Positions 10,749 to 23,663 of a stretch of DNA of 32,800 nt are shown piece by piece. Position 1 is the first letter of the stretch, and each line of letters begins with the position of its first letter. The stretch spans positions 1-32,800 of the forward strand of contig JQID01000113.1 of assembly GCA_000770645.1 (NCBI GenBank), written 5' to 3'. Origin of the DNA: Desulfosporosinus sp. Tol-M. GTDB lineage: Bacteria > Bacillota > Desulfitobacteriia > Desulfitobacteriales > Desulfitobacteriaceae. The notes beneath the pieces were generated by a model. It was not told the origin of the DNA and did not search any database. It saw only the letters and a list, made by a program, of their open reading frames with translations. The translations under genes were made by a program, and so were the position numbers.

Positions 10749-11915
10749 CTAAAGGAAGGCACTGCTGGGTAAATTTATTATCCGACGCTCCAGGTTTTCA
10801 GCTGTACTCAGGTCCATCCGCGGACAATACTGATACATGGGCAGTTGGTGCATTAAGGTCCAGGCCGGGCGGGTCATGATGCCAAGCTTGTTGGTTAACT
10901 CCAGAATAGTGTCCCGTGCGGCAGAATATTCTTCATCCAGCAAGAGAACGTTTAACCAGTAGTTACTGCGGGCAAAGTCAGCTTCTTTAAAAGCTTTTAC
11001 ACCCTTCAAATCAGCAAATGCTTCCTGATACCGTACGGCCAGAGACCTTTTTTGCTTAATAAACTCTGGTAGTTGTTCGAGTTGGGCACAACCCAGGGCG
11101 GCGTTGATATTTGGCATTCTGTAGTTATAACCCACCATATCATGATTGAACGACCAGGCGTGGGGCAGTTTGGCCTGTGTGGTCAGGTGTCGAGCCAATA
11201 CGGCAAGAGAGGATTCGTTAGTTAAGATAGCTCCGCCACCGCCGGTGGTAACGATCTTGTTGCCATTAAAGCTGAGAGCCGAAAGCCGTCCCCAACATCC
11301 GGTATGATAACCCTTGTACAAAGAACCTAAAGATTCTGCCGCATCCTCTACAAGCATCAGTTTGTATCTCTGGCAGACCTCCATCAGCGGGTCAATATCC
11401 ACAGGGTGTCCGAAGGTATGCATGGGCAGCACTGCTTTTATACGCCGCCCGCTTTTCTTATTGAAGCAGCCTTCAGTTCGAAGTTCGCTGATCTCTCGAA
11501 GATAGTCACCCAGCTTGAAAGGGTCTAAACCCAGGGTTCTTTCCTCATTGTCCGCAAAATGGGGAACAGCGCCGCAATAGCTAACCGCATTGGTTGTAGC
11601 GATAAAGGTTAACGCAGGCACTAAAACCTCGTCACCGGATGTGACTCCAGCCAACTGCAAGCAAATATGGAGCGCTGCTGTACCATTTACAACCGCGATC
11701 ACATGTTTTATTCCGGAGTACTCCGCCAGTTGTTTTTCAAAGCGGTCTACATCTTTCCCGGTCGAAGAAACCCAGCCACTGTCCAGGCATTTCTTAACAT
11801 AATTCCATTCATTTCCTTTAAATAACGGTTCGTGCAGGGCAATTGATTTTTGTTCTCGGGGTAACACACCTTGTAAAGTTTGGATAATAGTCTTTGGATC
11901 GAATTCCTTTTTCAT
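10749..11915 (-). CDS. legC: LegC-family aminotransferase (DegT/DnrJ/EryC1/StrS)
   Basis: 388 residues, full length for the LegC group. Landmarks: SGWVSSTGKDVDRFE near the N-terminus, VNGTAALH (about 77-84), VLPMHTFGHP, VEDAAESLGS (about 189-198) and SFNGNKIVTTGGGG with the Schiff-base Lys220. By family it aminates C4 of an NDP-4-keto-6-deoxy-GlcNAc using glutamate, the step after LegB. The ATG overlaps the LegB stop (ATGA), so LegB-LegC form a coupled pair on the minus strand. It is transcribed toward the LegI-LegG genes. GGNK supplies the lysine and all core residues look intact. Confidence 0.87.
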   Translation of the reverse strand: MKKEFDPKTIIQTLQGVLPREQKSIALHEPLFKGNEWNYVKKCLDSGWVSSTGKDVDRFEKQLAEYSGIKHVIAVVNGTAALHICLQLAGVTSGDEVLVPALTFIATTNAVSYCGAVPHFADNEERTLGLDPFKLGDYLREISELRTEGCFNKKSGRRIKAVLPMHTFGHPVDIDPLMEVCQRYKLMLVEDAAESLGSLYKGYHTGCWGRLSALSFNGNKIVTTGGGGAILTNESSLAVLARHLTTQAKLPHAWSFNHDMVGYNYRMPNINAALGCAQLEQLPEFIKQKRSLAVRYQEAFADLKGVKAFKEADFARSNYWLNVLLLDEEYSAARDTILELTNKLGIMTRPAWTLMHQLPMYQYCPRMDLSTAENLERRIINLPSSAFL

Positions 11916-12922
11916 AGAGTATAAACACCAGACTTGTATTTTTTCAAATTATCGCTATTCCTGAACCAGTTTATCGTTTCCGTCAAGCCTCGTTTCAAAC
12001 CCTCATGCCCGGCATATTCAGGTTCCCAGCCCAGGAGTTTCTTGGCCTTAGTATTATCTGCCCATAAGCGTTCCACCTCGCTTTTTTCTGGGCGCAGCCG
12101 GACCTGTTCGGTCAGAATTTCGATCTTAACCTGCATTATTTCTGCGATAAGTCCAACTAATTCTCCGATAGATATCTCATAATTACTGCCTATATTGATC
12201 ACTTTACCGACAGAAGTATCTGACTCGGCTAAAGCGATAAAGCCCTGCACGGTATCTTGAACATAGTTGAAATCACGAGTGGGATGAGTGGAACCCAGCT
12301 TGATTTTACGTTGACCGCCGGCAATTTGGGTTACTACGGTGGGGATAACCGCCCGGGCTGATTGGCGCGGGCCATAAGTATTAAATGGTCGAATGACCGC
12401 TACAGGGGTGTCGAATGAGTTGTGAAATGCTAGGGCCATTTGATCAGCGGCAATCTTCGTGGCTGAATAGGGTGATTGTCCTTGCAGAGGGTGTTCTTCG
12501 TTAATTGGAGTGAAGCGAGCAGTGCCATATACTTCACTGGTAGACGTGTGGATAACTTTCTCAACTCCCAGTTTACGCGCGGCTTGAAGAATATTTAAGG
12601 TCCCTTTGATATTCGTATCGACATAAGTATCCGGGGAATGATAGGAATAGGGAATAGCAATTAAAGCGGCCAGGTGAATAACCACTTCACACCCTTTCAT
12701 TGCTTCTTGAACCCCATGCGGATCTCGAATATCACCGGAAAATATCTCAAGATTATCCTGAAGGGATTTAGGCGTATAATCCAACCATCCCCAGGAATTG
12801 AATGAATTATATAAAACAAAGGCGCGTATGCTACAGCCCAATTTCAGCAATTCTTCTGTTAGATGGGATCCGATAAAGCCGTCAGCCCCGGTAACGAGGA
12901 TTTTTTTGTTGATCAGATTCAT
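11912..12922 (-). CDS. legB: LegB-type NDP-GlcNAc 4,6-dehydratase (copy 1)
   Basis: 336 residues, extended SDR family. Visible: ILVTGADGFIGSHLTE (NAD-binding GxxGxxG), HLAALIAIPYSY, TSTSEVYG, YSATK (Tyr/Lys of YxxxK), RPFNTYGPRQSARAVIPT and a C-terminal DNTKAKKLLGW segment. The GPRQSARAVIPT stretch and overall order are typical of the LegB group. It oxidises C4 and removes water across C5-C6 of an NDP-GlcNAc to give the 4-keto-6-deoxy intermediate for LegC, its coupled downstream neighbour. A TTGGAGG ribosome site precedes the ATG. A paralogue lies at 22677-23663. The upstream 189 bp is AT-rich and carries a candidate promoter. Confidence 0.87.
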   Translation of the reverse strand: MNLINKKILVTGADGFIGSHLTEELLKLGCSIRAFVLYNSFNSWGWLDYTPKSLQDNLEIFSGDIRDPHGVQEAMKGCEVVIHLAALIAIPYSYHSPDTYVDTNIKGTLNILQAARKLGVEKVIHTSTSEVYGTARFTPINEEHPLQGQSPYSATKIAADQMALAFHNSFDTPVAVIRPFNTYGPRQSARAVIPTVVTQIAGGQRKIKLGSTHPTRDFNYVQDTVQGFIALAESDTSVGKVINIGSNYEISIGELVGLIAEIMQVKIEILTEQVRLRPEKSEVERLWADNTKAKKLLGWEPEYAGHEGLKRGLTETINWFRNSDNLKKYKSGVYTL

Positions 12923-13111: not shown

Positions 13112-14107
13112 CTACTTGATTACGGTTTGATAAGCCTCTAAGGTCATCCGGGCAACTTTAGACCAAGGATAATGGTCACGGATATGCTGCATTAAGGGCC
13201 GGGGAGAGGCCTTAAAGGATTGCTCAAGGGCAGTACGTAAGCTTGCGTCATCCATGGGATGCACATAAAGGGCCATATCCCGGAAATACTCATGAGGACT
13301 TCCTTGGTCGGTCGAGATCACAACGCTGCCGCACGCGCCGGCCTCAATGCTCGATAAGCCCGGGGTTTCAAACCAGCTGGGCAGGGCATGAGTTGTGGCT
13401 GCTGAATAAGCGGAAGCGAGAAGTTCTCCCTGTAAAGTACCAATATGGATGACGTTCGAAAAGGATGTCACACTCTCAAAATACTTTTGGTCATTAACAG
13501 GTCCTAGAAGAACAAGAGGAACTCCCAGTTCGTGAGAGATTCTTGCCAGCCAATGCTGATTTTTACGTGCTGAAATTCGAGCCGCGCAAAGAATGAATTC
13601 CTTGGGAAGATTCGGAAACTGTTTCCGAAATAGTTGAGGGGTCGTCCCCATGAATGAATCTGGGAATCCATTCGGTACAACCTGATAAGGAGCGGTCTTG
13701 AGAAAGTCTTGCTGAAGAACGTTCATCTCAATTTGGCTATTGGGGAGCAAGAGTGTGCTTTCGCTCACCAAGCGGGCCCGCATGGGCTGCATGTGTTTCC
13801 AGACAGCCAGAGCATTTGTACTTGCATCTTCACGCTTGAAGTAAGCATTGGGAGGCCAATAAACAGGGGAGAGAACTACCCTTTTCTTTTGCTTTTGGGC
13901 ATTAAGAAAAAACATATAGCTTTCTTTGATGCGGGTAATATTAAAAATATGAACAAAGTCATAAGGAGACAGCTCAACGTTGGGATCAGTTGATATTTGC
14001 ACTTTAACGTCAAGGTTATTAAGCTCTTGCCCGGTAGAAACCATTTGTACAGTATCTCCCGCAGGGTTTTTCATGAAGTCCGGGCGAATTTGAAAAAGTA
14101 CTTTCAT
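13112..14107 (-). CDS. GT4-type (GT-B fold) glycosyltransferase
   Basis: 331 residues. The C-terminal half has the GT4 donor-site pattern: CAARISARKNQHWL, LLGPVNDQKYF, HIGTLQGELLASAYS and PSWFETPGLSSIEAGACG, ending with YPWSKVARMTLEAY. The N-terminal acceptor half is less conserved. It would transfer a sugar from a nucleotide donor with retention, at the cytoplasmic side; donor and acceptor unknown. The ATG has GGAGGA close upstream (AAGGAGGATTCTTT read on the minus strand). It follows the CgeB-like gene with a 74-nt gap, so the two may be co-transcribed. No signal peptide or membrane segment is visible. Confidence 0.82.
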   Translation of the reverse strand: MKVLFQIRPDFMKNPAGDTVQMVSTGQELNNLDVKVQISTDPNVELSPYDFVHIFNITRIKESYMFFLNAQKQKKRVVLSPVYWPPNAYFKREDASTNALAVWKHMQPMRARLVSESTLLLPNSQIEMNVLQQDFLKTAPYQVVPNGFPDSFMGTTPQLFRKQFPNLPKEFILCAARISARKNQHWLARISHELGVPLVLLGPVNDQKYFESVTSFSNVIHIGTLQGELLASAYSAATTHALPSWFETPGLSSIEAGACGSVVISTDQGSPHEYFRDMALYVHPMDDASLRTALEQSFKASPRPLMQHIRDHYPWSKVARMTLEAYQTVIK

Positions 14108-14181
14108 AAAGAATCCTCCTCAAAGATACTTATTTAGAGGGATTTATAAATGCAGTGAACAAGATCAGAAAGTTCGCCGGC

Positions 14182-15132
14182 CTATAACTTTTCGAGATAC
14201 TGGCGGATGGATTGGATGCGGTGTTGATAGGTATGCTTGCGGTACACTTCCTCCTGACCTTGACGGGCGATTTTTTGGCGGAGATCCGCACGCTTTAAAT
14301 AAAAACGCACAAGCTCAGTCGTCTCGTCCGGATGACGGCTCCAGACGAGATGAACATGGTTTTTAAAAATGTTTTCGATTGCTTGAGACCAGTGTGTCAA
14401 GAAAAAGGCTTGACAACCCAAGGCTTCAAAAGTTCGCATGCTCATCATCGTGGGAGAATTTATCACCGAATGTAAGCCTAAAACGATTTTCGCCGAAGAA
14501 TAAGCACAGGGTAATTGGTCATAGGGCAAATATCCTTGATATACCTCGGGTTCTAACGTGTAACGGTCCGTATTCGCCAGCCAGTGTTCGTTACCGAAAA
14601 CCTTTAAATGAAACGGTCCGGAACGTAAGGGAGTGAGAATTGTTTCCAGCCCGATTCTTCTTTGAGGATAAGTGGTATAGTAATTGGCAACAAGAAGCAA
14701 ATCGCAAGTTAGTCTAAGCGATGGTTCGGTAGGTTGATGAAAGGCCGGATTACAGGCAAAGTGGAAATAAAGCGCGCGAATTTTCTCCCGCTGATAAAGG
14801 GATAGACATTCTTCCGCCGGGGTAAGAACCAGACTGGTGCCGCGCGCCAAAGGGCGGGACATGCGGCGCCAGTCTGGGGGATCGTCTATGGCCCAATAGA
14901 TGAGTGGGAGGGAATGACGGCGTAATAGAGGAAAGAGTCTCCCGACCACAGTGGATATTGAAACACCCTCGGCTAAAGCTAAGTCTGGCTGCCATGTTCT
15001 AAACAAGTCAGTCAAACGGTCTTCCCAGTCCGGCAAGCGGACTGGGTGATAACGGATTTCATCCACTGAGGAAAAACCCGAGGCTAACCCATGGCGCAAG
15101 AGAGATGAATCATTCAAAAACAGAATCTTCAT
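14182..15132 (-). CDS. CgeB-like glycosyltransferase
   Basis: 316 residues from the ATG at 15132. An ATG 15 nt further upstream is possible but lacks a ribosome site, whereas ATGGGGA lies about 8 nt before the chosen start. The C-terminal region matches the CgeB/Glyco_trans_1_2 style: LGLHSVINSPTMMSMRTFEA, LGCQAFFLTH, then a run ending RQKIARQGQEEVY. CgeB of Bacillus acts in spore crust glycan maturation, which supports a spore-surface role here (family knowledge, not proof). The A of its ATG is also the last base of the TAA stop of the preceding small gene with an in-frame TGA, so the two genes are tightly coupled (TAATG). Confidence 0.78.
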   Translation of the reverse strand: MKILFLNDSSLLRHGLASGFSSVDEIRYHPVRLPDWEDRLTDLFRTWQPDLALAEGVSISTVVGRLFPLLRRHSLPLIYWAIDDPPDWRRMSRPLARGTSLVLTPAEECLSLYQREKIRALYFHFACNPAFHQPTEPSLRLTCDLLLVANYYTTYPQRRIGLETILTPLRSGPFHLKVFGNEHWLANTDRYTLEPEVYQGYLPYDQLPCAYSSAKIVLGLHSVINSPTMMSMRTFEALGCQAFFLTHWSQAIENIFKNHVHLVWSRHPDETTELVRFYLKRADLRQKIARQGQEEVYRKHTYQHRIQSIRQYLEKL

Positions 15133-15362
15133 TAGTAGTGTCCCCATTGATGGTTAGTCTGTCGAATCACAGCCTCCAGGGAATTAATCAGAGTTGCCGG
15201 GTTAATGTGGTATCGTTGGGCAGCCTGCTCAACGCTCATAGTGAGTAAGTGCTTGGCCCCTCAACCAGATGGAGAAATGCCAAATTTACGGAAGGTATTG
15301 GCTGCTTGAGGATACTTCGATAGAATTACGGCAAGATTAGTATCTAAATCTAGGTGGTCCAT
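15132..15362 (-). CDS. DUF1858-like small redox-domain protein with in-frame TGA: candidate selenoprotein or nonsense pseudogene
   Basis: 77 codons from the ATG at 15362 to TAA at 15134-15132, with a single TGA at codon 34 (15263-15261). Before it the protein reads LSKYPQAANTFRKFGISPSG; after it GAKHLLTMSVEQAAQRYH and NPATLINSLEAVI. Both halves align with the DUF1858/TIGR03980 redox-disulfide domain, where a CxGC motif follows F-x-K-Y-G-M-H. The TGA falls on the second Cys; the first Cys is Pro here. The frame is clean on both sides, starts inside the upstream gene (13-nt overlap) and ends exactly at the CgeB start (TAATG). That arrangement favours read-through to the end. Sec insertion is plausible in this bacterial group, but a simple Cys-to-stop mutation (TGT/TGC to TGA) gives the same picture. 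Confidence 0.6.
15228..15263 (-). promoter_or_regulatory. TGA codon with weak SECIS-like hairpin downstream
   Basis: On the minus strand the TGA (15263-15261) is followed by CTCA (15245-15242) pairing with TGAG (15238-15235) around a 3-nt loop. Below it CTTA (15249-15246) pairs with TGAG (15231-15228) across a 3-nt bulge. The apical loop is about 19 nt after the TGA, a distance that suits bacterial SECIS elements. The loop lacks the expected early G, so support is only modest. Confidence 0.3.
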
Positions 15363-17113
15363 TTGTTCCAAAAACCCCCTTTATTTTTAATCTCTTTTTT
15401 CTCTTCTTGGAGTTGAGAAATCTGTATACCTAGATTTTCCAGAGAAGAGTCGCTCTGCTCTTGTTTAGCCAGCATAACCCGAAGGACTTGAGATAGACTT
15501 TTGGTTTCCTTTTCAAGATTGGACATGGCTTCTTTAACCGGATCAGGTTCTTCAAAAGGGGTTTCTAAAACGGTTTGTGGATATTCTAATTCTTCTGTAC
15601 GAGATGGTTTTTGTTTGGATTTCTTGGGTTGTTTGGGTTGAATAACATTGTCCGAAATTGCCCCAAGGATTTGATCAAACTTCGCGAGCATAGTTTGAAG
15701 AACTAGACTTAGATTAGAACTTTCTTGTTCGAGATGAGCTACTGAAGTAATTAAGCGGTCGAGTTCGACGTTTTCTTTCACAGGTTGGGATAGTAAGATA
15801 TCTTCTGATGAATTTTCCGGTGTATCCGGCGCCTCGAGTACATCAGGCACATCAGACACATCAGGCACATCAAGTGCTTCAAGTACTTCAAGCACTTTTG
15901 GCGCTTCATCTATCTTAATCGGGGAGGGAGTACTTAAGATTTCGTCTTTTTCAGTTATTGTGGTTGAAGTTGGCGGAGAAAGATTGGGAGATATTAGGTC
16001 AGGATAAAAGGCTGGAACTGGAGGAATAGCTTGAGTAAAAATGGGCAGGGTGGTTTGTAAGGGTGTAAATACAGGAGGGGATTCCTTATTAAAAGTGAAG
16101 CCCAATTCATGGTAAAAGGCCGGAGCGCGCCGCTCAGCTTGGTCTTCCAACCAACTAGTTTGATGACAATTCTTCCTGCCTTTATATACCCATTGTAAGG
16201 GCTGATGGAAGGTAGGATGAGAGGATACTAATTTCCACCCTTTACCATCATTTTGCATGAGGATTTCTTCCCCAGTTCGGATAAGTAACCAAAGAACGCC
16301 ATTGATTTCTAAGATCCCCATACTTCTCCAAGGAGAATTGAAGGTTTTGATAGGGGCGGGCGATGGGTGCCAAGTGCTGGATAGTTCATGGGTATCGATT
16401 TGTTGCGCAGTGCGGAGTTCAAATTGCCCATTTGGTGCCTTTACGACCCAGAAAAGATGATGAACATTATCCGATGTCATGAGTGCGGCAGTATCCACGA
16501 CTTCACCTGAGATTTTTAGTGTTTCGGCAAGAGAGCCCCATAGATGAAAGGTTCCGTTAAAGCGGTTGGTATAAAGGAGAGAATATCGGCCCTGGAAGGT
16601 TATAGTTAACAAATGAAGGTTCCCCTGATTGTCCAAGTTAACGTGATAAAGGGGTATTCGCGGGTGAACAACTTCTCCCAAATGAACACTGTGCCAGGAG
16701 GAACCGTCCCAATAACTGTGTTCGATACGCCAGAGCTCTCGAATGGCTTGATGCGTATGGGCGTAAAAGATATGTATTATTTTACCTTGTGGAAAAAGAA
16801 AGAGTCGTTCGTATCTTGAGGCGCGGACATCAAGTTTGGCGATTAACGTTGTCTGGGGTGTTGCAGGACCAGAAATTAGAGTATAACAAAGTTCACCGCT
16901 TGTTTTAAGGACGACGAGATGGACAGTTTTGGTATCGGTCATGATTCCATGAGCTAGAAGCAGTGGTTCTTGAATCCGATAGTAGGGTTCAGGACTGTCT
17001 TCACCGAAAAGAGCACATCCCTGAGGATCGATGTGCAGGTACATGGATTCGTGGTCATAAGTCAGGAGAAGCGGAGTAAGCGTGGTTCTCCTTAGGAAAG
17101 CCAATACGATCAC
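15350..17113 (-). CDS. Beta-propeller-like protein with Pro/Asp-rich linker and two coiled-coil repeats
   Basis: 587 residues from GTG 17113; an AAAGGA lies too close to it, so TTG 17104 or ATG 17044 are alternative starts. Residues about 25-340 consist of short beta-strand repeats rich in Trp, His and Leu (LHLLTITF, HHLFWVVK, LWLLIRTG), like a lectin or sialidase-type propeller. Next come a Pro/Thr-rich linker and a short tandem repeat (VLEALDVPDVSDVPDVLEAP). Two similar helical segments close the protein: LEQESSNLSLVLQTMLAK and LEKETKSLSQVLRVMLAK, an internal duplication suited to coiled-coil assembly. No signal peptide is visible, as with many spore-coat proteins. It heads a coupled group with the in-frame-TGA gene and the CgeB-like gene. 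Function unknown; structural surface protein is the best guess. Confidence 0.65.
   Translation of the reverse strand: MIVLAFLRRTTLTPLLLTYDHESMYLHIDPQGCALFGEDSPEPYYRIQEPLLLAHGIMTDTKTVHLVVLKTSGELCYTLISGPATPQTTLIAKLDVRASRYERLFLFPQGKIIHIFYAHTHQAIRELWRIEHSYWDGSSWHSVHLGEVVHPRIPLYHVNLDNQGNLHLLTITFQGRYSLLYTNRFNGTFHLWGSLAETLKISGEVVDTAALMTSDNVHHLFWVVKAPNGQFELRTAQQIDTHELSSTWHPSPAPIKTFNSPWRSMGILEINGVLWLLIRTGEEILMQNDGKGWKLVSSHPTFHQPLQWVYKGRKNCHQTSWLEDQAERRAPAFYHELGFTFNKESPPVFTPLQTTLPIFTQAIPPVPAFYPDLISPNLSPPTSTTITEKDEILSTPSPIKIDEAPKVLEVLEALDVPDVSDVPDVLEAPDTPENSSEDILLSQPVKENVELDRLITSVAHLEQESSNLSLVLQTMLAKFDQILGAISDNVIQPKQPKKSKQKPSRTEELEYPQTVLETPFEEPDPVKEAMSNLEKETKSLSQVLRVMLAKQEQSDSSLENLGIQISQLQEEKKEIKNKGGFWNKWTT
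15831..15900 (-). repeat. Short degenerate tandem repeat coding for V/A-P-D units
   Basis: A run of 9-nt degenerate units (forms of CATCAGGCA and TTCAAGTGC on the plus strand) within the linker of the propeller/coiled-coil gene. It encodes alternating Asp, Val, Pro, Leu and Glu triplets. Such in-frame units can change number without breaking the frame. Confidence 0.7.
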
Positions 17114-17244: not shown

Positions 17245-18801
17245 TTACTGGCAGCTATCCAGCTGTGGCGGGAAGAAATCACTGGGGAATGGAGTGAGAG
17301 TGGTGTCAAAGAAATTGACACATGGATTTTGTGGTATATCCGGGAATTCCTCACAAGCCGGAGGTTCTGGACAGAACCCGAAGGCTGGAACAAGAAGTTG
17401 TACTAAGCCGGTCACTTTAGTTATCACAAAGCTTCCTATCGCAAGCTGAATTGTAGCCATTGTGAACAACGGGCTGGTCAATACTTCGGTTCTCGTTTCA
17501 ACGCGCAGGTTAAAGTCAAATTCTGGACGAGTTGGTGGGAAGTACATCACGATATCTTTGTTAATATCCGGGAGGTGACCCGTGAGGGTAAATATGGCCC
17601 CGGTTGAATCCCGCAAGGTTAAAGTGTAAGGGATTTGGATTGTGAACTGAACTCTTGAGAAATTCGGGCGGGATGGAATGGGTGTTATGACGATACTACC
17701 GGGAACGATCACACCCGTAGCAAAGGTCATGCTGATAAAGGTAAACGGCGGCACACCACTTGAAGGCAGGGAGATGGTAAAGGCAGGGAAGCATTCCCTT
17801 TGTAAGCAGCTGGCATAAACTTTTTCAACAATGATACAAACAGATTCTGTTACTTCTTCCAGTTGATAAGGGTCAGTCAAGTCAATGGGGTCACTGGGCG
17901 ATAATGCAGATCCAACTCTGCCCACGGTAACACCCCGGGGTGGGAAGGCAGTTGGAAGCGCAGCTGCAATAGTATTCGTGCTGGTGTTAATGATACTGAG
18001 CGAACTATCGCCTTCGTTAGCAACCCATACTTGCGTGCCATCACCGGTAACATCCAGGCCGCGCGGGTTGATTCCTACGGAAACATTCGTTATTACATTA
18101 AGCCCGGTTGTCGAGAGTACGCTAACACTGTTTGAACCAAAGTTAGTCACATACATAAAGACAGGATTCACGGGATTTGCCGCGATTTTTTGCGGGTTCG
18201 AACCGACTGGGATTAGGCTTAAAGTTGCATTGGTCGAGGTATTAATGACACTGACGTTGTTGCTGCCACTATTGACAACAAAGAGCTTTGTATTATCCAG
18301 GCTAACGGCCAAACCATTGGGTGAAGTACCTACCGCGATCGTTGTGATGACGGTATTAGTTACTGGGTTGATGACAGAGACCGAATCACTGCCGCTATTG
18401 CTTACGTAGACGTGGCTGCCATCACGGGCAATAGTGACATCAACAGGGCCTGTGCCAACGGTAATGGTGCTTACAACTGTGTGGGTCGGAATGCTAATGA
18501 CGGAAACAGTTCCGCTTCCAGAGTTTGTAACGTACGCTGTTGTGCTGGTCGGGTCAATCGCTACTGATGTAGGGGCAAGACCCACCGGGACCGTTGCTAA
18601 GACATGATTTGTTGCAGTACATAAGATGGAGACGGAGTTGCTGCCAAAGTTAGGAACTAAAACCTTTGTACCATCCGGCGTGCGTTTTGGGAAAGCCGGA
18701 GCAATCCCCACGGGGATGGTGGCGACAAGCACATCGCTGTAAACATTATATATAGCGACGGCGTTGTCGAGTGTTACCCAGGCATGGGTTTCAAATAGCA
18801 T
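17245..18801 (-). CDS. Seven-bladed YVTN beta-propeller protein with Cys-containing C-terminal domain
   Basis: 518 residues from the ATG at 18801, preceded by a GGGGGGG site 9 nt upstream; an in-frame ATG at 18861 would add 20 residues without a better site. Residues about 1-315 hold seven blades of about 42 residues. Six carry clear YVTN-type motifs (AYVTNSGSGT, VYVSNSGSDS, LFVVNSGSNN, MYVTNFGSNS, VWVANEGDSS, VLVPNFGSNS), alternating with (T/V)xxVGxxP turns. The remaining ~180 residues form a separate beta-rich domain with several Cys (ASCLQREC, CPEPPACEEF, NPCVNF) and many Pro; I do not recognise it with certainty. YVTN propellers are common on prokaryotic surfaces and in clostridial spore layers. 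No signal peptide is evident. It is followed by a terminator, so it appears monocistronic or the end of a unit with the TuaH-like gene (107-nt gap). Confidence 0.8.
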   Translation of the reverse strand: MLFETHAWVTLDNAVAIYNVYSDVLVATIPVGIAPAFPKRTPDGTKVLVPNFGSNSVSILCTATNHVLATVPVGLAPTSVAIDPTSTTAYVTNSGSGTVSVISIPTHTVVSTITVGTGPVDVTIARDGSHVYVSNSGSDSVSVINPVTNTVITTIAVGTSPNGLAVSLDNTKLFVVNSGSNNVSVINTSTNATLSLIPVGSNPQKIAANPVNPVFMYVTNFGSNSVSVLSTTGLNVITNVSVGINPRGLDVTGDGTQVWVANEGDSSLSIINTSTNTIAAALPTAFPPRGVTVGRVGSALSPSDPIDLTDPYQLEEVTESVCIIVEKVYASCLQRECFPAFTISLPSSGVPPFTFISMTFATGVIVPGSIVITPIPSRPNFSRVQFTIQIPYTLTLRDSTGAIFTLTGHLPDINKDIVMYFPPTRPEFDFNLRVETRTEVLTSPLFTMATIQLAIGSFVITKVTGLVQLLVPAFGFCPEPPACEEFPDIPQNPCVNFFDTTLTPFPSDFFPPQLDSCQ

Positions 18802-18908
18802 GTGTGTATTCCCCCCCTTTTTTGATTCGAAAAATGAGATAAGACTGAGCAGGACTTTCAACGTATACTATTCGATCGTAGAGTAGGGTGTTACACCTTA
18901 TTTTTCAT

Positions 18909-19898
18909 TTAATCAGCCTGGAGAAAGATTTGTTGAAGCATCCTTCCGGCCCGTTCACCCCAGTCGTTAGCTTGGGCGTAAGCCATTCGTTCAGCTTTGC
19001 TGAAATCCTTTCCTTCCAATAAATAACGTAGGCGCAGGGAGAATAATTGAGGGTTACTTTCCAGATTGATGTTCGGAACGGTAAGCAGTTCAGCAAGCGG
19101 TGTCCCAAGAACCCGGATTCCTGCTGCATAATATTCGTAGAGTTTGATAGGGTTGCACCCCTTGGTCATTTCTGTTTGAAGAAAGGGAATAAGCGCAACA
19201 TCAAAGTGATGAAGATAAGCGGGGAGTTGATGATAAGCTTTCAGACCTAAATAGAAAACATTCTTAAATTTGAGGGGAAATTTATTGAGTTGAAAGAGGG
19301 CTCCAAGAAAAACAAAGTTAAATTCTGGGCTTCCTTGGATCACGGTCCTAAGCAATTCCCAATCGACCCAGGGGGCTATTGCTCCACTGTAGCCGATGAT
19401 GGGTTTACCTGACGGAAGATCAGTTGGACGTTGCTTAGGTGTGGGCGAAAAATGGACGTAATCTACGCCGTTCGGGACAAGGCAAACTTGCGGATGACGT
19501 TTCGAAAAATAATCAAAAATGCTTTGCCCACTACAAAAAATTAGATTTGCTCTTTCGAGGATAGCTGGGAAATAGGGTGCCCAACTGGCAAATTCCTCTT
19601 TGGGTTCATCCACAGCATCATAAATAACGAGATCTGGGTTATAGGAATGAATTAAATTAATGTGCGAGGGAACGGTTAACCAAAGAATGCGTGGTTGTGG
19701 ATGGGGAATAGTCATGGCGGAAATCCCTTGGCAAAGAAGTAAGGTTGGGGATAAGCTCCTAATCCCTGGTTGGAGAAAGTTGCCGAGGTCCTCGTAAAGA
19801 ACAGTCTGGCCCGATGCGGAAAATTGACATAACAACTGCTGTGGGCGTTGAAACATCCAATTCCAGGGGATTGAGGGCGGATATATAAATGTAGGCAT
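18909..19898 (-). CDS. TuaH-like glycosyltransferase
   Basis: 329 residues. The N-terminus has IPWNWMFQRPQQLL, characteristic of TuaH-like and related GT4 enzymes. Later landmarks are FCSGQSIFDYF, LVPNGVDYVHFSP, PIIGYSGAIAPWVDWELL, FVFLGALF and IKLYEYYAAGIRVLGTPLAE (donor-binding E). A GT-B retaining glycosyltransferase in the cytoplasm is expected; B. subtilis TuaH belongs to teichuronic acid synthesis, but donor and acceptor here are unknown. The ATG has GAGGAGG upstream (read on the minus strand). Its upstream region is the hairpin-rich 331-bp gap it shares with the divergent GT4 gene at 20230. Confidence 0.8.
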   Translation of the reverse strand: MPTFIYPPSIPWNWMFQRPQQLLCQFSASGQTVLYEDLGNFLQPGIRSLSPTLLLCQGISAMTIPHPQPRILWLTVPSHINLIHSYNPDLVIYDAVDEPKEEFASWAPYFPAILERANLIFCSGQSIFDYFSKRHPQVCLVPNGVDYVHFSPTPKQRPTDLPSGKPIIGYSGAIAPWVDWELLRTVIQGSPEFNFVFLGALFQLNKFPLKFKNVFYLGLKAYHQLPAYLHHFDVALIPFLQTEMTKGCNPIKLYEYYAAGIRVLGTPLAELLTVPNINLESNPQLFSLRLRYLLEGKDFSKAERMAYAQANDWGERAGRMLQQIFLQAD

Positions 19899-20229
19899 TT
19901 GTAACCTCCTCTTACGCTACTTCCTTGCCATACGGCAGCTAGCTATCTCGTCACCTTGCCATACGGCATTTGGCCATCCTTGGCGGCGCTACTAATCTCA
20001 AACGTCCTGTTTGAGTCATGGCGGTGTTCTAACCTCAAACATTCTTGTTCGGGTCATGTTAGATACTTAGTCGTCCAAGGACTTTTATTCCATATAAGAT
20101 ATGTAGGTAGAGCTCAAAGGGTAAACAATATGGAAAAAAGGGAAAGGTTTCTTTAAAGATTAAGGGTTTGTGGCTTGTTTAGCACTTTTTAAGGCTTGTC
20201 GCATAGGATGTGGGTGTGGGGGGATAATG
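19899..20229. repeat. Hairpin-rich repeat region between divergent glycosyltransferase genes
   Basis: This 331-bp gap has no convincing gene. It contains the 15-mer CCTTGCCATACGGCA twice (19923-19937 and 19954-19968); each copy holds a small inverted repeat TGCC-ATAC-GGCA. Next come two imperfect tandem units of about 38 nt, each starting GGCGGYG and ending GTCAT. The first contains the perfect hairpin CTCAAAC-GTCCT-GTTTGAG (19997-20015), the second a related one (20034-20053) with several changes. A further GTCC-AA-GGAC lies near 20072. The rest is AT-rich and must hold the promoters of the two divergent genes, whose boxes I could not define. Regulatory or repeat-element origin is undetermined. 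Confidence 0.55.
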
Positions 20230-22541: not shown

Positions 22542-22676
22542 AGATAAACCTCCTCCAAGCAGACGTTTATTGGTAATGTATGCTGCCACATCCTTTGATG
22601 TGGCAACATGTGTCAGATAAACAAACCTTAACATACGATATATTAATTGCGGCAGAAGGAGGAAAGGAAGAGTGTG

Positions 22677-23663
22677 ATGTGGGAACAAAAAAAGGTCTTG
22701 ATTACAGGAGCCGGCGGTTTTATCGGCAGTCACTTGACAGAGGCTTTAGTCAAAGCAGGAGCAAAAGTCCGAGCCTTTGTTCGTTATAATTCCAGAGACG
22801 GTCGTGGGAATTTGGAGGATTTAGAGCCCGGGGTACTTGAAGAGCTCGAAATCATCGCGGGAGATTTGCGGGACGCGGATGTCATAGAACGATCGGTAAA
22901 AGGTTGCGATGCAGTTTTTCACCTAGGCGCTTTGGTGGGAATTCCCTATTCCTATAAAAACCCTCGTGAGGTCGTGGAAACCAATATTATGGGGACGTTT
23001 AATGTTCTTACCGCAGCACGTGATCACGGAGTGGCTCAAATCGTTCATACATCTACAAGTGAAGTGTACGGCTCTGCGTGTTATGTCCCAATCGATGAAG
23101 CTCATCCTCTTCAGGGTCAGTCTCCCTATTCAGCTAGTAAAATCGGGGCGGATAAGTTAGCGGAAAGTTTTTTTACTTCCTACGACTTACCTGTCGTTAC
23201 GGTTAGACCGTTTAATTGTTATGGGCCGCGGCAGTCAGCGCGGGCAGTCATTCCGACGCTAATTACTCAGGTTCTTGCCTGTGAAGAAATACGTCTTGGT
23301 AATACTGAGACTTTACGTGATTTTACCTTTGTAACGGATACTGTGGACGGTTTTATGAAAGCAGCGCAGAAGCGGGCGGCGGTTGGAAAGGTTATTAATG
23401 TGGGTTCAGGACAGGAGATTTCGATTGGCCAGCTAGCTTCCCAGATTATTAAGATGCTAAGAAGCTCGGCAAAAATTGTTGTGGATGAGTCTAGGGTCCG
23501 TCCGAACCGTAGTGAGGTGAACCGTCTTTTGGCGGATAATCGGTTGGCAAAAGAAACGCTGGGGTGGGGACCGCAAGTTTCTTTGGAAGAAGGGCTAAAA
23601 AGGACAATGGCGTGGATTGCCACTCATTTGAATCGTTTCCAGGTCGGAAAATATCAAATTTGA
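22677..23663 (+). CDS. LegB-type NDP-GlcNAc 4,6-dehydratase (copy 2)
   Basis: 328 residues from the ATG at 22677. AGGAGG and a second AGGAAG lie upstream; a GTG at 22674 and a TTG at 22647 are weaker alternatives. Extended-SDR landmarks: VLITGAGGFIGSHLTE, HLGALVGIPYSY, TSTSEVYG, YSASK, RPFNCYGPRQSARAVIPT, and the C-terminal NRLAKETLGW. It keeps the same motif order and the same GPRQSARAVIPT stretch as the copy at 11912-12922, so the two are paralogues. It heads a plus-strand operon that runs to about 31328 and is followed 22 nt later by a nucleotidyltransferase. It may act on a different nucleotide form of the sugar or in a separate glycan; this is inference. Confidence 0.83.
   Translation: MWEQKKVLITGAGGFIGSHLTEALVKAGAKVRAFVRYNSRDGRGNLEDLEPGVLEELEIIAGDLRDADVIERSVKGCDAVFHLGALVGIPYSYKNPREVVETNIMGTFNVLTAARDHGVAQIVHTSTSEVYGSACYVPIDEAHPLQGQSPYSASKIGADKLAESFFTSYDLPVVTVRPFNCYGPRQSARAVIPTLITQVLACEEIRLGNTETLRDFTFVTDTVDGFMKAAQKRAAVGKVINVGSGQEISIGQLASQIIKMLRSSAKIVVDESRVRPNRSEVNRLLADNRLAKETLGWGPQVSLEEGLKRTMAWIATHLNRFQVGKYQI

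Follow-up and report, generated by a model that had tools for sequence, protein, structure and literature searches.

We analysed a 32,800-nt stretch of DNA, referred to here as the window, which is one entire contig of the 3.04-Mb, 206-contig assembly of Desulfosporosinus sp. Tol-M (98.9% complete, 8.3% contaminated). An operon on its reverse strand begins with a glycosyltransferase-like gene (18909-19898 (-); family matches under curated cut-offs), followed by a YVTN beta-propeller protein with a C-terminal domain of six conserved cysteines (17245-18861 (-); profile match and neighbourhoods) and by a gene with no Pfam family above cut-off, part of whose product looks by eye like coiled-coil (15350-17113 (-)). 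Next comes the subject of this report, a predicted selenoprotein gene of 76 codons with a DUF1858 domain and one in-frame TGA (15132-15362 (-)). It is followed by a Pfam Glyco_trans_1_2 glycosyltransferase (14182-15132 (-)), which we take to be CgeB-like, CgeB being a spore maturation protein, and by a group 1 glycosyltransferase that also belongs to the conserved operon (13112-14107 (-); profile match and neighbourhoods). The start of the CgeB-like gene was set from homologues at the ATG within a TAATG junction; its mechanical ORF begins at 15147. Elsewhere in the window lie genes for nonulosonic acids, of which LegB, LegC, NeuB and NeuC score over their cut-offs and a PseF-like one below, and glycosyltransferases are found there too. 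This glycan cluster holds two LegB-type 4,6-dehydratases (11912-12922 (-) and 22647-23663 (+)), only the first of which passes the cut-off.

With TGA read as U, complement(15132-15362) encodes MDHLDLDTNLAVILSKYPQAANTFRKFGISPSGUGAKHLLTMSVEQAAQRYHINPATLINSLEAVIRQTNHQWGHY, with U at residue 34; it contains zero Cys residues. The TGA itself (codon 34, 15261-15263 (-)) is, from the orthologue alignment, the predicted selenocysteine codon. The preliminary description had the gene tightly fitted between its neighbours, and both junctions are where it placed them: the start overlaps by 13 nt the upstream ORF, whose end is at 15350, and in TAATG one A is common to the stop TAA and the ATG of the next gene. 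It had also assigned both sides of the TGA to one frame and one family, and the Pfam DUF1858 match (PF08984; residues 5-59; 33.2 bits vs. a cut-off of 32.2, with C substituted for U) does cross the TGA. A six-frame search of the genome gave this as its only DUF1858 match, at 27.8 bits, under the cut-off, and with '1 TGA'.

Protein matches were found in 57 of 198 related genomes, and the named relatives carrying the gene were Desulfosporosinus in five of five loci. Within the genus, an orthologue was found in 26 of 29 genomes (of the other three, two are 79% complete and the third is G027), and every one of the 26 contains exactly one stop, a TGA at codon 34; random stops elsewhere in the gene, which had been named as a sign against a selenoprotein, were absent from these close relatives. 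Among the other genomes of the family, 10 of 16 have an orthologue, five with TGA (G030, G031, G034, G038 and G039) and five with TGC or TGT as read in the DNA (G032, G033, G040, G043 and G044), and so TGA or Cys occupies this column in all 26 genus and 10 family orthologues. Looking for Cys or TGA at this column in relatives had been proposed as a check, and its outcome speaks for a selenoprotein. In the protein database, 11 longer proteins (P0002-P0010, P0012 and P0015) likewise have Cys at the TGA column; P0002 and P0004 are 75% and 71% identical to the window protein, showing Cys forms close to the genus that are known as proteins, and further Cys forms come from other members of the family. 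A 41-row tree, built on few columns and with many unresolved forks, requires four changes between Sec and Cys, at least two of them forced by well-supported branches.

Beyond the TGA, the frame is open to codon 74 and free of gaps in 26/26 genus copies, and each of the other two frames is stopped in 26/26. Mean diversity in codons 51-74 of these copies is 0.22, 0.11 and 0.43 at codon positions 1, 2 and 3, a pattern that indicates purifying selection on the part after the TGA.

The presence of selA, selB, selC and selD in the genome had been proposed as a check, and all four were found with scores over cut-offs: selA at 554 bits, selB at 363 and selD at 397 in profile searches, and tRNA-Sec (selC) at 64.9 bits, about 200 nt from selB. 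We used SelB to compare the kinship of the Sec machinery within the genus, a comparison that bears on the 8.3% contamination of the assembly; SelB orthologues occur in 27/29 genus genomes (one partial) and are 70-88% identical to that of the window genome, and the completeness of the two genomes lacking one is 79% and 85%. In G023, whose assembly is 85% complete, the TGA gene is present and a full SelB is absent. Conversely, G027 (99% complete) has SelB and no orthologue, its nearest candidate being a distant CxxC paralogue, so the protein is dispensable. Three genus genomes (G003:C1:2249084-2250925, G022:C95:95123-96964 and G026:C29:127437-129278) encode an additional SelB-like protein of full length, which shares 37-38% identity with the SelB of the window genome.

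A SECIS-like hairpin, UUGAGCA-GGC-UGCCCAA (15216-15232 (-)), starts 28 nt past the TGA, with its loop at 35 nt. Its general form, UUGAGCA-GGC-UGCUCAA, has a 7-bp stem and a GGC loop; the window copy pairs at six of seven positions, its single A-C mismatch being common to G004, G030, G031 and G039. The bacterial SECIS model given in the legend to Fig. 2 of PMC13188914 has an apical loop of 3-9 nt, a stem of 4-16 bp, a G within the first two loop positions, a distance of 16-37 nt from the UGA and a minimum free energy at or below -7.5 kcal/mol, and our hairpin agrees with this model in loop size, stem length, loop G and spacing. Folded alone, the 21-nt hairpin of the window reaches -6.9 kcal/mol, short of the -7.5 limit because of the A-C mismatch, and the other 25 genus copies range from -5.0 to -11.7. 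The minimum-energy fold of 57 nt of the window (-13.0) is a different structure, as it is in several relatives. Since an Rfam search of 14000-16500 gave no match, we judged the hairpin by its conservation.

Every one of the 35 TGA genes that the protein search recovered keeps at least six of the seven pairs, whereas the five Cys orthologues keep 3-5 and none of 21 Cys paralogues has six (nine of 30 paralogues were dropped, the motif that places the site not being found in them). Overall, 46 of 47 hairpins have at least six pairs and the remaining one (G335) has five; 12 of the 47 came from a DNA pattern that fixes the five inner pairs, and in these, therefore, only the outer two pairs are independent. 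In G191b the hairpin lies 29 nt from the in-frame TGA and 21 nt from a second, out-of-frame TGA. Synonymous change relative to expectation falls to 0.20 in codons 40-46 and 0.21 in codons 44-50, vs. 0.60 for the whole gene; it is likewise low (0.29) in codons 1-7, which overlap the upstream gene.

Across 34 distinct sequences, 96.6% of cells pair (vs. 93.6% in shuffles and 30-40% with the strands slid). Pair 2 is U-A in 25 sequences, C-G in five, A-U in two and unpaired in two; one of its bases is the wobble position of an I/V/L codon and the other is position 2 of the codon five places downstream, where Q, R or L appears according to the wobble base. Covariation was judged by five shuffle measures, two of which were not exceeded. 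Changes on both sides occurred in seven cells (vs. 1.2 in shuffles; 0/500 as high) and the covariation score was 0.130 (vs. 0.071; 0/500 as high), whereas the number of pairs with a both-side change (one) and of extra pair types (four) did not rise above shuffles; in the two measures not exceeded, 381 and 369 of 500 shuffles were as high. Sliding the strands by +1 to +3 likewise gives one pair with a both-side change. Covariation is thus real in one pair only, and the rest of the stem hardly varies. The preliminary description had noted a weak stem-loop after the TGA: the SECIS-like hairpin proved to be conserved, with one covarying pair, and it is stronger in most relatives, but the window copy has the A-C mismatch.

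Taking together the sel genes, the TGA in 26/26 orthologues, the selection, the Cys forms and the hairpin, we conclude that 15362-15132 is very probably a selenoprotein gene, and we regard the decoding of UGA codon 34 as selenocysteine as highly likely. The in-frame TGA first noticed in the window is thus confirmed, and its interpretation as a selenoprotein is supported.

DUF1858 selenoproteins are not new as such. Predicted members of PF08984 with CxxU are listed in two reviews (PMC9312934 and PMC13188914); they share with our gene the domain and the place of Sec, at the second Cys of CxxC. Unlike that listed family, the present subfamily has lost the first Cys and usually sits in a glycosyltransferase operon. 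The residue three before Sec in the 26 genus copies is Thr in 21 and Pro, Cys, Ser, Ile or Val in one each, so that CxxU is absent from the window protein, where Pro stands, and the first Cys occurs in 1/26 copies. The preliminary description had seen this Pro correctly, and it belongs to the window genome only among the 26; the lone Sec that it thought unusual is instead the rule in the subfamily. The Cys forms examined also lack the first Cys, and its loss therefore marks the clade and not the selenium form.

We compared the subfamily with 16 other TGA DUF1858 genes, 14 with CxxU and two with adjacent CU (L063 in G115 and L147 in G191), of which four came from the protein search and 12 were picked by eye from matches to the DNA pattern; this pattern search, the basis for finding more TGA DUF1858 genes, matched 81/398 genomes, and the mismatched hairpin of the window escapes the exact pattern. 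The hairpin core GAGCAGGNUGCUC is common to these genes and the subfamily (it is fixed by the pattern in 12/16), and the loop-to-TGA distance is 35 nt in the subfamily vs. 26-29 nt in the others. A phylum-wide PF08984 scan matched 238/398 genomes, with no stops in the best-scoring matches listed, and was of no use for locating TGA forms. Two further families bear comparison. The hybrid cluster protein-associated redox disulfide domain (TIGR03980) is homologous (31.1 bits, under the cut-off of 44.95), but a disulfide of the CxxC type is impossible in the window protein, with Pro at the first position. Peroxiredoxin selenoproteins with the motif TxxU, as listed in PMC13188914, resemble the Thr-x-x-Sec of 21/26 genus copies, yet their fold is different and the window protein has no match to a profile of that family.

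The lone-Sec subfamily and its operon appear to be new within the literature searched. The preliminary description had thought a redox domain linked to spore-type glycosylation genes to be new; DUF1858 selenoproteins as such are already included in PMC9312934 and PMC13188914. Among the matches listed in searches for selenoprotein with DUF1858, Desulfosporosinus, spore coat or Desulfitobacterium, titles and the starts of abstracts did not mention the gene; no report of selenium chemistry in a glycosylation operon occurred among the literature matches listed, and the main text of a 2026 review contains no word beginning with 'glycosyl' or 'spore'. The analysis adds a well-supported predicted selenoprotein subfamily, whose database members are cut off at residue 33, and would place selenium chemistry in a glycosylation operon. 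It also presents a predicted Sec that persists across a genus in the absence of its partner Cys, natural exchanges between Sec and Cys being available for comparison, and a hairpin core of CxxU, CU and lone-U DUF1858 genes that can serve as a motif for finding more.

The operon recurs in the order glycosyltransferase, propeller/six-Cys protein, 15350-17113-type protein, DUF1858, (CgeB-like) and glycosyltransferase, and among the family orthologues this order is found with both TGA and Cys forms. The CgeB-like gene is absent in L059-L062 (Cys forms) and L058 (G034, a TGA form), no first glycosyltransferase was detected in L061, and in L065 (G033, a Cys form) the gene is flanked by the six-Cys protein and the 15350-type protein only, with glycosyltransferases absent. 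Of 12 sequences of the propeller C-terminal domain, 10-12 have any given one of the six cysteines; at five loci in other genera (L058-L062) the domain forms a free-standing protein of 212-237 aa. L063, from another family, combines a similar short protein (E 1e-4) with a CU-type TGA DUF1858 gene and glycosyltransferases, a suggestive though weak recurrence of the grouping. The 15350-17113-type protein varies in length from 486 to 663 aa (11 sequences), and all 11 share GFWx(K/R)W at the C-terminus as well as one invariant Cys.

The structure model is helical (pLDDT 83.9, pTM 0.65), with residue 34 just before a helix at 36-40. Foldseek returned no match under E 0.001; the best solved matches were 2k5e (TM 0.76) and 2k53 (TM 0.72), small proteins also found by the family profile, and the N-terminal domain of YtfE (0.57-0.65).

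We infer Sec insertion and what would follow from it (the single-selenol chemistry, the partner, the cytosolic place and the timing) along these lines. UGA codon 34 would be decoded by SelB and tRNA-Sec, likely directed by the hairpin that starts 28 nt downstream, giving a small helical protein with Sec34 in a loop before a helix. As the protein has no Cys, Sec34 would act as a single-selenol nucleophile, forming a mixed selenenyl-sulfide with a partner thiol and not an internal CxxU bridge. Judged by gene position, the most likely partner is the six-cysteine domain protein of the operon, a tentative choice; its thiols might be reduced or rearranged by the Sec protein during assembly and glycosylation, possibly in the cytosol of the mother cell during sporulation. 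The full proposal, still speculative, is that the thiols of a six-Cys surface protein are handled, during assembly of the spore surface or another envelope, by a mother-cell DUF1858 protein that has one selenol and no cysteine, with the dedicated glycosyltransferase operon decorating the surface protein. If true, this would tie the glycan coat to selenium supply.

The likeness to YtfE raises an alternative role for the same selenoprotein, as the selenium counterpart of ScdA_N/DUF1858-type modules that handle metals or NO: Sec34 would be a ligand for a metal or an Fe-S intermediate, and the protein would not be a thiol oxidoreductase. Pfam ScdA_N does match, though below its cut-off (20.1 vs. 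32.5 bits), and the structural likeness is to the N-terminal domain of YtfE; in proteins of the YtfE (RIC) type this four-helix domain carries two conserved Cys in a loop (PMC9268430). Unlike those proteins, however, the window protein has no di-iron domain and one Sec in place of a Cys pair, leaving no Cys to share a site with Sec, and no metal-cluster gene is among the operon genes identified. We consider this role unlikely.

Another reading accepts decoding as Sec and makes the main role of the gene regulatory, with selenium-dependent translation coupled to, and switching on, the downstream glycosyltransferase. Throughout the genus and in the sister genera, the stop of the gene overlaps the next start or lies just ahead of it, as such coupling would have it, and the start of the gene overlaps the upstream gene too. 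However, the Cys forms occupy the same place in the operon although they contain no TGA for such control, the TGA form of G034 has no CgeB-like gene next to it, and the part after the TGA is under apparent purifying selection, so that a chiefly regulatory role seems quite improbable.

That the TGA is a real stop, with the second half a decaying remnant or translated separately from an ATG at codon 42, we reject as extremely improbable: the database does contain 11 proteins that stop after residue 33, at the TGA (that of the window among them), and one product, P0016, beginning at codon 42, which is ATG in 26/26 genus copies, but G031 and G039, both TGA forms, have Leu at this codon, and the reading is at odds with a TGA at the same codon in all 26 genus genomes, with an open frame conserved at codon positions 1 and 2, with Cys codons replacing the TGA in sister genera and with the conserved hairpin. 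Read-through as a residue other than Sec is unlikely, given the sel genes in the genome and the orthologues, in which this position is either TGA or a Cys codon.

We return to the thiol-handling proposal for the expression of the operon. Upstream of its first gene lies CATATCTTA (20095-20103 (-)), a promoter -10-like CATANNNTA element that is also present in 19/25 relatives. CATANNNTA was found in 20/26 upstream regions (two of 28 were dropped, their gene start lying outside the stretch), vs. 3.3 expected and a maximum of 11 in 300 simulations; in the reverse-strand control, a weak one, it matched in 13/26 regions, and because of this the element gives only a hint of mother-cell expression. 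A literature search for the sigma-factor consensus found no paper. The short repeat TGCCGTATGGCAAGG occurs twice in 19899-20168 (-), upstream of the operon, and the promoter-like element stands at -205 in the window vs. roughly -40 to -60 in most genus genomes.
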